Below are positions 50,735-56,309 of a stretch of DNA of 64,000 nucleotides, one piece after another (position 1 is the first letter of the stretch; every line of letters begins with the position of its first letter). Below the pieces are notes generated by a model. It had not been told where the DNA came from and made no database searches. It was given only the letters and a program-made list of their open reading frames with translations. A program made the position numbers and the translations under genes. Source of the stretch: Deferribacteraceae bacterium V6Fe1 (GTDB lineage Bacteria; Chrysiogenota; Deferribacteres; Deferribacterales; Deferrivibrionaceae); the NCBI GenBank assembly GCA_022813675.1, contig CP063375.1, positions 1 through 64,000 of the forward strand. The letters are read 5' to 3'.

Positions 50735-50763
50735 ATATTTATGAAATATTCAAGGAGGCAAAA

Positions 50764-52041
50764 ATGAATTATCCCATTTGGATAAGCGAAGCATTATCAG
50801 GAGCACAGCTAATTGCAATTATAGCTGTTTTTCACGTATTTATCTCGCATTTTGCAGTAGGTATGGGGCTGTATGTTGTATTAACTGAAAAGATTGCCAT
50901 CAAATCAGGCAACTTAGAAGAAAAAGTATTTGTAAAAAAGAGCAGTGCGCTAATTCTGCTGATTTCTGCAGTGTTAGGAGCACTCACCGGCGTAGGGATA
51001 TGGTTTAGCATAGCTCTTGTGTCCCCCGCCGGAACAGCTGCCTTAATACATATTTTCGTATGGGGGTGGGCAACCGAGTGGATATTCTTTGTCCTTGAAA
51101 TATTTGCTATCCTTGCTTACTACTACACATGGAATAAGGTTTCCGACAGTACACACGTCTTTTTAGGATGGCTATATTTTATCGGAGCATGGATGAGTCT
51201 TGCTATCATAGCCGGAATTATTGCATTTCAATTAACTCCTGGCACTTACCTTGAGGATAAAAGCTTCTGGGGGGCATTTTTCAATCCCACTTACTTCCCT
51301 TCTGTTGTAGGAAGAACAGGAATATCTTTTGTTTTGGCAGGGATATATGCCACACTTGTGCTTTCATTTACCAAAAATAAAGAGATAAAGGTAAAATATG
51401 GCAGATTTACGGGATATTTTATAATTGCGGGAGCTGTCCTAACATTTTTGGGGATGTATTGGTGGGTACAGGCAATACCTGAAGAGGTTAGAGAGCAATT
51501 CTTAGGCGGCAATGAGATTTTATCAAGCTTCTACAATAACTCTATTTACCTTACGATAGCCCTTATAGTCCTTGCAGCCATTTTCACGCTCGCTATTCCA
51601 AAATACATGAATATTGCATTTGCATTAGTCCTTCTCATATTAGGTCAGGCTAGTTTTGGCTATTATGAATTTACAAGAGAAAGGGTCAGAAAGCCTTATG
51701 TAATTAGAGATTTTATGTACTCTAACGGCATATTGAAAAATGAAGTGGAAAAGATTAAACAGGTAGGTTTTTTAAATTACGATAAATGGGCTACCGTAGG
51801 ACAGCCAAACGACGAAATCGGTAAAGGACGAAGGATATACAACTCTCAATGCAGAATCTGCCATATGCCGCAAGGTTTTAACGAAATGTATTCCAAGGTG
51901 GAGGGGCTCACAGCTGAAGACCTTTACGGTATGCTTGACGATTTGGATGCCAATCCGCTTATGCCTCCTTTTGCAGGAAACGATGCAGACAAACAGGCTC
52001 TTTCAAAATATCTCGAAAAAATAGGTCAAGGGGGTAAATAA
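50764..52041 (+). CDS. Cytochrome bd-like (CydA-related) subunit with C-terminal cytochrome c
   Basis: An integral membrane protein of 425 residues with about eight to nine helices and a C-terminal c-type cytochrome. The first helix has VFHVFISHFAVG; His24 is in the place of the heme-ligand His19 of E. coli CydA. The third helix has ATEWIFFVLEIFA with E105 and E112, resembling the CydA E99/E107 pair but one residue closer. The place of CydA His186 (FPSVVGRTGISF) lacks a histidine. No quinol Q-loop is obvious. The tail has CRICH (C363-H367) and a likely Met ligand in MPPF (M400). AAGGAGG precedes the ATG. It is likely a terminal or electron-accepting reductase; substrate unknown. Confidence 0.8.
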   Translation: MNYPIWISEALSGAQLIAIIAVFHVFISHFAVGMGLYVVLTEKIAIKSGNLEEKVFVKKSSALILLISAVLGALTGVGIWFSIALVSPAGTAALIHIFVWGWATEWIFFVLEIFAILAYYYTWNKVSDSTHVFLGWLYFIGAWMSLAIIAGIIAFQLTPGTYLEDKSFWGAFFNPTYFPSVVGRTGISFVLAGIYATLVLSFTKNKEIKVKYGRFTGYFIIAGAVLTFLGMYWWVQAIPEEVREQFLGGNEILSSFYNNSIYLTIALIVLAAIFTLAIPKYMNIAFALVLLILGQASFGYYEFTRERVRKPYVIRDFMYSNGILKNEVEKIKQVGFLNYDKWATVGQPNDEIGKGRRIYNSQCRICHMPQGFNEMYSKVEGLTAEDLYGMLDDLDANPLMPPFAGNDADKQALSKYLEKIGQGGK

Positions 52042-53138
52042 TGGAAAATATATTAATTCCTGCTTTCTCATCTGTTCCTTTATCTTCACCAACCTGGCTG
52101 TTTGTATTTTTTCTCGTATTCACTTTCTTTTTGCACATTCTGTTTGTAAACCTTACCCTTGGCGGGACAATTCTGCTTTTGGTATCAAAATACATCAGCA
52201 AAGTTTTTGGAAACAACACATATGACGAAATAGCCGAAGAGATAGGCTACCTTAATACATTCAACATATCTTTTGCAGTCACCTTAGGTGTAGCACCTTT
52301 ACTTTTTTTACAAACTATGTATGAAAACTTCTTTTACACATCATCAATTCTACTGTCTTGGAAATGGCTTTTTGTCCTTGCAGCCATTATTTTCGCATAT
52401 TATTTTTACTACCTCTACAAATTTAAGCCTTGGTATATTAAATTTTCCGGAGGGAAAGGGATAATTTTCATAGTTTTTGCAGCAATTATGTTTCTCTATG
52501 TTGCACTTATATTTGTGACAAATACTACCCTCTCAATGCAGCCGGAGCTTTGGGCGGAAGTATATACGGGCAAAATTTCCGCTTTCAGTGTCAAAACATT
52601 GGTGCCAAGGCTTATTCATTTTGTATTAGCAGCGATAGCTTTTAGCGGGTTATTTCTTATGGTGTATTCAAAATTCAGAAAAAACTACTCGGCAACGCTT
52701 AAAGACACAATGTATAATTTCGGGAAAAAAGCATTTTTCTACACAACATTAGCTCAAATCATAGTCGGCATTTGGTTTCTATTCTCTCATGAAAAAGATA
52801 TCTATATGCTTCTCATGGGGAAAAATATTGTCGGAACACTCTTCTTGTTAATCTCAATAGTTCTTACAGTTTTTGCCCTTTTTTATGTATACAAAAACAA
52901 AGAAAATATTTTTACACTTAGCGCTCTTGTACTTTTAATCATAGCCTCAATGGTAATAGTAAGAAGAGTCGTTGAAACGGGCTTTTTTGAAAAATACTTT
53001 AAATTAAGTGAGTTAAACGCCGAGCCATATTGGGGGATTTTTGCAATTTTTGCTATACTTTTGGTCTCGCTTTTAGTTGTAATATATTATTCGCTCAAAA
53101 GAATTGTCAAAGATATGAAAAACAAAGCGGGGGCTTAG
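52041..53138 (+). CDS. Second CydA-like membrane subunit
   Basis: A membrane protein of 365 residues with about nine helices. Helix 1 has FFLHILFVNLTLGG, very close to the CydA FHFLFVPLTLG segment, with His32 at the CydA His19 place. Another helix has RLIHFVLAAIAFSG with His193 at the CydA His186 place. The glutamate pair seen in the first subunit is missing. It is not a normal CydB. Its start overlaps the first gene by one base (TAATG). It should form a heterodimer with the first subunit and probably holds heme b. It ends against the convergent RluA-family gene, overlapping it by 4 bases. Confidence 0.75.
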   Translation: MENILIPAFSSVPLSSPTWLFVFFLVFTFFLHILFVNLTLGGTILLLVSKYISKVFGNNTYDEIAEEIGYLNTFNISFAVTLGVAPLLFLQTMYENFFYTSSILLSWKWLFVLAAIIFAYYFYYLYKFKPWYIKFSGGKGIIFIVFAAIMFLYVALIFVTNTTLSMQPELWAEVYTGKISAFSVKTLVPRLIHFVLAAIAFSGLFLMVYSKFRKNYSATLKDTMYNFGKKAFFYTTLAQIIVGIWFLFSHEKDIYMLLMGKNIVGTLFLLISIVLTVFALFYVYKNKENIFTLSALVLLIIASMVIVRRVVETGFFEKYFKLSELNAEPYWGIFAIFAILLVSLLVVIYYSLKRIVKDMKNKAGA

Positions 53139-55447: not shown

Positions 55448-55472
55448 AAAGAAGGCCTTATCGGCCTTCTTT
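55448..55472. terminator. Bidirectional terminator
   Basis: A 10-bp perfect stem, AAAGAAGGCC with GGCCTTCTTT, with a 5-base TTATC loop and flanking T/A runs. It lies just after the lipoprotein stop and overlaps the last codons of the convergent gene, whose TAA falls in the loop. Confidence 0.85.
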
Positions 55473-56309
55473 CATAATTTTAAACAAATCTATCGGGGTC
55501 ACTCCGATTTGAGCAGCCATATCCTTCATTAAACTTTTTTCATCAAATTTTATCCCCGCCTTTTCGAGGTTGGCAAAAGCCGAATCTTTATCAAGACCAT
55601 ATTCATTGATTACACTTAAAATACTCTTTTTGCCCAATCCTGAGCCTTCGGCAGGTATCTTCTCTTCAATCTTAGAAATTTCAGGTTTTACTTCATCTAC
55701 ATCTGCCTCAATTTTGGCATCTTTAATTAAAAGGTAAATATCTTGGGGAGTTTTGTTATTTTTATTGGCAATCTGCAACAAAGTTTCATTTTCATTGTCA
55801 TATTTAATGGCATTTTTATTTAAAATTTCTTTTACCTTTTTAATATCCAAGCCCATTTTTTTAGCAAAATTTTTAAGCCCTACAAGCTCAGCATGCCCAA
55901 AAGGTGGTTCGCCATATTTGTCAGCCCAATAGTCATCCACATCGGACTGCCATATATAAAGGTCGCTAAAAGGGGAAGTTTTATAATATGCACCCATAAA
56001 AACAGCCGCAGTTATTATTAAAGCTACAACGAAATTCGGCGTAAACAATACAAAATTTTTAGCTTTGTTTTTCAAATACTGCATTATAGCTTTCCAGTTA
56101 AGATAGATATGTAAAATTGAAAAGATAAGAAATAACAGAGACGTTGCAGTGTGTAGCTCGCCGTACTGACTTTTGGTAAGTCCCAAAAGTTGCCACCCTC
56201 CCCAATATGCAACCCTCCCTTCAGGTACTATGATTAGAATAAGACCGGTGTAACACATAACTAAAAACGACAACAACGTTGTCAAAGATACAATTTTTCT
56301 AAAACTCAT
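55458..56309 (-). CDS. DUF4405-like membrane protein with repeated helical tail
   Basis: A membrane protein of 283 residues. Three to four helices (about 8-30, 52-75, 90-112) resemble the DUF4405 group, with paired histidines in ELHTATSLLFLIFSILHIYLN that could hold heme b. The soluble tail contains two similar units, about 148-205 (LKNFAKKMGLDIKKVKEILNK ... TPQDIYLLIK) and about 235-280 (INEYGLDKDSAFANLEKAGI ... TPIDLFKIMK). Function unknown; a quinone- or heme-linked role is an inference. Its last codons lie inside the terminator hairpin. Confidence 0.7.
   Translation of the reverse strand: MSFRKIVSLTTLLSFLVMCYTGLILIIVPEGRVAYWGGWQLLGLTKSQYGELHTATSLLFLIFSILHIYLNWKAIMQYLKNKAKNFVLFTPNFVVALIITAAVFMGAYYKTSPFSDLYIWQSDVDDYWADKYGEPPFGHAELVGLKNFAKKMGLDIKKVKEILNKNAIKYDNENETLLQIANKNNKTPQDIYLLIKDAKIEADVDEVKPEISKIEEKIPAEGSGLGKKSILSVINEYGLDKDSAFANLEKAGIKFDEKSLMKDMAAQIGVTPIDLFKIMKEGR

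Follow-up and report, generated by a model that had tools for sequence, protein, structure and literature searches.

A side-by-side pair of CydA paralogues with a tethered heme c in a Deferribacteraceae genome: a candidate copper-free oxygen reductase of the cytochrome bd superfamily

The window, that is, the whole stretch of 64,000 nucleotides that was analysed, belongs to the genome of Deferribacteraceae bacterium V6Fe1, which comprises 2.36 Mb in one contig. Two genes of this window are found on the same strand and overlap by one base within TAATG, as read directly from the sequence. We call their products subunits I and II, and their features are the following.

50752..50758, + strand: ribosome-binding site AAGGAGG preceding the subunit I gene (sequence read directly)
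50764..52041, + strand: subunit I, a CydA paralogue of 425 residues with eight predicted TM helices and a C-terminal periplasmic monoheme cytochrome c (Pfam, hhalign, AlphaFold and PDB folds)
50833..50835, + strand: codon of H24 of subunit I, at the place of CydA H19, predicted high-spin heme ligand (hhalign and MAFFT register; 112/113 homologues)
51076..51078, + strand: codon of E105 of subunit I, at the place of CydA E99, on the heme d side (hhalign and MAFFT; 112/113 homologues)
51097..51099, + strand: codon of E112 of subunit I, at the place of CydA E107, proton path (hhalign and MAFFT; 110/113 homologues)
51679..51681, + strand: codon of E306 of subunit I, at the place of CydA E445, predicted high-spin heme ligand (hhalign of C-terminal halves, E 6e-5; 112/112 homologues)
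51814..52026, + strand: cytochrome c domain of subunit I (Pfam Cytochrome_CBB3)
51850-51864, + strand: CRICH motif of subunit I (C363RIC366H367; C363, C366 and H367 in 111/111 homologues)
51961-51963, + strand: Met400 of subunit I, within MPPF (109/109 homologues)
52041..53138, + strand: subunit II, a second CydA paralogue of 365 residues with nine predicted long helices, its gene overlapping the stop of subunit I by one base (hhalign, AlphaFold and PDB folds)
52134..52136, + strand: codon of H32 of subunit II, at the place of CydA H19 (hhalign and MAFFT; 112/112 homologues)
52617..52619, + strand: codon of H193 of subunit II, at the place of CydA H186, predicted low-spin heme ligand (hhalign and MAFFT; co-occurrence with M304)
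52950..52952, + strand: codon of M304 of subunit II, putative axial partner of H193 at a low-spin heme (present in 90 of 92 sequences with H193 and in none of 11 without; top-ranked column)

A functional link from the neighbours in the window was considered and dropped, as the divergent upstream gene for an IclR-type regulator and the other genes are common to the genus only. The pseudouridine synthase-like gene downstream of the pair is also genus-restricted and gives no functional hint. Further downstream, on the minus strand (55458-56309), the window encodes a DUF4405 membrane protein whose N-terminus is cytochrome-b561-like.

What our analyses show is homology, conservation of the ligands, a subunit I that has lost both H186 and the quinol loop, the co-occurrence of H193 and M304 in subunit II and operon links. 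Subunit I scored above the cut-off against Pfam PF01654 (E 4e-13) and also matched Cytochrome_CBB3 (E 2e-7). Subunit II as a single protein gave no significant match to Pfam, NCBIfam or PDB sequences, and neither a single-sequence genome scan with it as the query nor a phage search yielded anything useful. When whole genomes were searched in six frames, subunit II of the window's organism and of relatives gave a weak match to PF01654 (columns 7-231), with E-values down to 2e-5. Profile-profile comparisons with hhalign linked subunit II to subunit I (49 and 52 sequences, respectively; E 4e-14 over 283 columns), and both to a profile of 32 canonical CydA sequences (E 7e-12 for subunit I and 1e-5 for subunit II). 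In contrast, subunit II gave no signal against a CydB profile, and sequence homology to CydB was therefore rejected. From these alignments, AlphaFold produced confident models, with pLDDT values of 93 for subunit II and 92 for subunit I, and Foldseek ranked solved CydA chains first for both of them. The model of subunit II also resembles CydB folds, with TM scores of 0.67-0.69. The first-pass annotation had proposed that both genes are related to CydA, rather than being CydA and CydB, and that a placement of subunit II in a family unrelated to CydA would speak against its reading; the profile and structure comparisons agree with the former and did not yield the latter. Judging from these comparisons, subunits I and II are two CydA paralogues encoded side by side. 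In an unrooted tree limited to subunit I, subunit II and CydA, with 28 sequences each, each family forms one side of a branch, and the duplication that gave rise to the two subunits is thus old.

We next consider the ligands of subunit I. Escherichia coli CydA holds its low-spin heme b558 by His186 and Met393, while Glu445 and Glu99 are located at heme b595 and heme d, respectively (PMC6853902). The register that places H24, E105 and E112 of subunit I on H19, E99 and E107 of CydA is the same in two alignments obtained by different methods, i.e. hhalign and a three-family MAFFT alignment. When the C-terminal halves were compared separately, E306, R309 and P311 of subunit I fell on Glu445, Arg448 and Pro450 of CydA (ERVRKP in subunit I, EYGRQP in CydA). 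Among ~110 homologues, these high-spin ligands show little or no variation, and the same holds for the CxxCH motif and Met400, so the likeness is not due to chance; CxxCH and the Met residue are present in every subunit I homologue that is complete at its C-terminal end. At the place of CydA H186, the MAFFT alignment shows G183 and R184, with no His. The connection between helices 6 and 7 comprises ~15 residues in the AlphaFold model of subunit I, as opposed to ~140 in E. coli CydA, and the models of both subunits are devoid of a Q-loop. The residues that the first-pass annotation had picked out in subunit I, namely H24, E105, E112, CRICH and M400, are thus borne out by sequence and alignments, as is its remark that the equivalent of His186 is missing. 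Subunit I alone is predicted to carry every ligand of a bd-type high-spin diheme site. As it has this complete set for O2 and neither a b558 nor a quinol site, the tethered heme c would replace b558 as the point of electron entry.

Subunit II shows a complementary pattern. Its H32, within the motif FLH32ILFVNLTLG, corresponds to His19 and its H193 to His186 of CydA in both types of alignments, and it has none of the glutamates of the CydA high-spin set; the first-pass annotation had noted both His residues and the lack of a glutamate pair. H32, R190, Y99, Y124 and Q91 are invariant or almost so. H193 and M304 are both present in 90 sequences of subunit II and both absent from 10; two sequences have the His residue only, and none has the Met residue only. 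Among all columns of the alignment, that of M304 best tracks H193 (90/92 versus 0/11, Fisher p 4e-13, the next column being at 2e-8), these p-values being descriptive only as they ignore shared ancestry. H193 was lost, and M304 with it, in Thermus, Methylosinus, one clade of Acidobacteriota and some others. When the tree was built with these two columns removed, the joint losses fell into about four clades, so that support for the pair is real yet limited, and the number of pairs in a tree-based test of independent pairs was too small for significance. Co-occurrence of this kind is the pattern expected for a His/Met heme, and heme b558 is indeed bound by one His and one Met residue (PMC6853902). 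The simplest reading is that a low-spin heme is held by H193 and M304 between helices 5 and 8 of subunit II in the window's lineage. M304 is in helix 8, whereas M393 of CydA is in helix 7; M259, which precedes helix 7 of subunit II, was considered as the counterpart of M393 and dropped because it is conserved in only 26 of 49 sequences.

E306 of subunit I and M304 of subunit II had been overlooked in the first-pass annotation, which proposed an active site split between the two subunits. As E306 completes the O2 site within subunit I, we reject this split; the division would rather be between a high-spin site in subunit I and a low-spin site in subunit II. The two chains together would thus hold what canonical CydA holds in one.

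We then determined the distribution of the pair. A scan with subunit I, using one genome per species, returned at least 449 relatives, of which 80 loci were kept. They belong to Deferribacterota, Methylomirabilota, Acidobacteriota, Desulfobulbaceae, Bacteroidota/Ignavibacteria, Calditrichota, Chloroflexota and others. Of 115 loci, 110 have the genes for the two subunits next to each other or within a single cluster, and the remaining five show one of the two only. Subunit II is present in 11 of 40 sampled relatives of the window's order and in 69 of 297 genomes of the Acidobacteriota phylum; a phylum search centred on Methylomirabilota covered two genomes only. The number of CxxCH motifs in subunit I is one (58 cases), two (26 cases) or eight (28 cases); the last group is mostly from Desulfobulbaceae, with a 450-residue multiheme extension. 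In those loci (L040, L042, L045, L051, L056, L087 and others, mostly Desulfobulbaceae), the gene for subunit II precedes that for subunit I, and the multiheme c extension of ~450 residues, with which subunit I totals eight CxxCH motifs in most cases, is weakly similar to cytochrome c7 and MtrC-type domains.

Seven of the 20 Acidobacteriota loci that were read (L191-L194, L196, L197 and L199) have the order subunit II, Rieske protein, cytochrome b and subunit I on a single strand. The single CxxCH of subunit I represents the one c heme of each of these clusters, and no gene for a c-type cytochrome was found downstream of them within the stretches read. With no other c-type cytochrome in the cluster, the bc complex apparently reduces the tethered heme c directly, which would replace cytochrome c1. 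The first-pass annotation had suggested a soluble c-type donor instead of quinol. A c-type donor is indeed likely, given the genes found between those for the two subunits at the seven loci, but the first c heme is attached to subunit I, and the Rieske protein may be its direct reductant in those operons. A search of the accessible literature found no account of such an operon in Deferribacterota or Acidobacteriota.

Other loci show further arrangements. Three from Bacteroidota/Ignavibacteria (L036, L050 and L069) represent a three-gene version: cbb3 oxidase-like genes are upstream of two tandem genes for subunit I, which in turn precede that for subunit II. Several pairs are encoded on plasmids. 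On the Methylosinus plasmid pMSC49c (L019:8983-19317), the pair is accompanied by a small c-type cytochrome and a sensor kinase/response regulator pair; methanobactin (copper acquisition) genes are a few genes away, which suggests a use under copper shortage. In two Thermus thermophilus plasmids (L018 and L020), a gene for a metal ABC transporter substrate-binding protein directly 5' of the pair is found in both, and metal-transporter-like genes are divergent and upstream of the cluster at one of the Acidobacteriota loci (L194). On the Agrobacterium tumefaciens conjugative plasmid pLN1-183666 (L017), the pair is followed by a RegB/RegA-like two-component system. In a Candidatus Methylomirabilis MAG (L034), subunit I is 60% identical to that of the window, far above the values for other phyla, which suggests horizontal transfer with Deferribacterota. 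Finally, a genome of the same order, 73% complete, contains a remnant of subunit II with several stops, adjoining a short remnant of subunit I (L030, G022:C17:1-1011).

In the window's genome, our search found neither CydB nor a canonical CydA. It does encode a Rieske/cytochrome b pair along with c-type cytochromes: at 369.5-374.7 kb (L203:496-5727), the genes for the Rieske protein and a short cytochrome b adjoin a c-type cytochrome gene and two for large multiheme cytochromes. Judged by its gene content, this is an unusual bc-type complex. A cbb3 oxidase and a caa3-type oxidase are also encoded, and thus the enzyme formed by subunits I and II is not the organism's sole possible O2 sink. It may represent a third one, fed from the same cytochrome c level.

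How does the pair relate to known systems? Murali, Gennis and Hemp are said to have described, in 2021, an OR-C family that bears a heme c on the CydA-like subunit. Papers citing that work state that the bd superfamily comprises the families qOR, OR-C and OR-N and that a quinol site is the mark of qOR. The pair probably belongs to the described OR-C family, which, in a likeness by description, has a CydA-like high-spin core, no quinol site and a heme c on the CydA-like subunit. CydAB of E. coli and Geobacillus shares the fold and the H19/E99/E107/E445 high-spin set with subunit I. It differs by its Q-loop, the H186/M393 low-spin heme in CydA and the CydB partner, all three of which are absent from our pair; conversely, the pair has a tethered heme c and, as its second subunit, a CydA paralogue rather than CydB. 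Two CydA paralogues per complex, as here, are also found in archaeal CydAA' and in OR-N CydAA' of Nitrospirota/Nitrospinota (PMC10839748, PMC12342949). These two papers describe no fused heme c for CydAA'/OR-N, whereas subunit I has one; OR-N proteins, compared here by description, are bd-like proteins without heme c, and the heme c motif sets subunit I apart from them. OR-N5 proteins are encoded downstream of alternative complex III genes (PMC12342949), a parallel to the Rieske/cytochrome b operon of the relatives of our pair. The cbb3 cytochrome c oxidase also reduces O2 with electrons from the cytochrome c level, and its own subunits likewise carry c hemes, but it has an unrelated heme-copper fold and needs copper. 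As OR-C and CydAA' are already in the literature, the new points are possibly the H193/M304 pair and the Rieske/cytochrome b operons.

We propose that subunits I and II form a heterodimer of the bd superfamily that reduces O2 without copper and receives electrons at the level of cytochrome c, a reading to which we give a probability of roughly 0.6. From the data above, we infer heme occupancy, the order of electron transfer and O2 as the physiological substrate. Electrons of the quinol pool would pass to a cytochrome bc complex, probably together with periplasmic c-type cytochromes in this organism. The C-terminal heme c of subunit I would be the next acceptor, and from there electrons would reach the high-spin diheme site of the same subunit (H24, E105, E112 and E306), at which O2 would be reduced to water. 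Subunit II would occupy the place that CydB has in CydAB, as a CydA paralogue that has lost its O2 site while retaining, in the window's lineage, that of a low-spin heme (H193/M304). A broader proposal, which we put forward tentatively and hold at slightly less than even odds, is that this is a widespread heme-only oxidase. A duplication would have split the sites of CydA, the diheme pair remaining in one paralogue and the H193/M304 heme in the other, and the c-type input would be swappable between mono-, di- and octaheme forms. Some Acidobacteriota would have a four-gene bc-bd quinol:O2 complex, with the heme c in the role of cytochrome c1.

Subunit II might instead be a heme-free scaffold in the same complex, with H193 and M304 as packing residues and electrons passing from heme c to subunit I only. 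Its resemblance to CydB folds is consistent with this, since CydB is a heme-free structural counterpart, and lineages without H193 and M304 exist while homologues of subunit I keep their ligands throughout. However, H193 is at the place of H186, it is coupled to one Met residue above all other columns, and the two form the b558-type ligand set; we therefore consider a scaffold role rather unlikely. It is a little less likely still that the complex is not mainly an O2 reductase and that its role is the reduction of another small molecule such as NO or peroxide, or electron exchange between quinone and c-type cytochromes, as put forward for bd-like proteins of nitrite oxidizers and anammox bacteria. 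The complex is found in mostly anaerobic groups, e.g. Deferribacterota and Desulfobulbaceae, the window's organism has its two other oxidases, and reverse electron transport was proposed for a bd-like protein of Nitrospina, Nitrospira and anammox bacteria (PMC3578206). Against this, all high-spin ligands and the E107 proton-path residue are kept, which would be unexpected if O2 chemistry had been abandoned, and bd enzymes of anaerobes can serve for O2 removal (PMC13186404). The literature search found no activity or heme analysis for this clade.

The archaeal CydAA' pair, according to what Murali et al. reportedly found in 2021, oxidizes quinol. With this precedent, one could envisage that our pair oxidizes quinol directly, at a quinol site of another kind and with the heme c as a side branch, and subunit II could bind quinone near H32. 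This appears improbable, as neither subunit has a Q-loop, the heme c and its Met residue are invariant, and bc genes are inserted between those for the two subunits in Acidobacteriota.

Bd oxidases are taught as quinol oxidases. If our main reading, an O2 reductase at the cytochrome c level, is true, the occurrence of such a copper-free oxidase across many phyla would change the way in which genomes are interpreted with regard to O2 use and tolerance, with the strongest effect for organisms that lack heme-copper oxidases or are short of copper. The predictions on E306, H193/M304 and the heme c, together with the operons of subunit II, Rieske, cytochrome b and subunit I genes, make the question of the electron donor directly testable.
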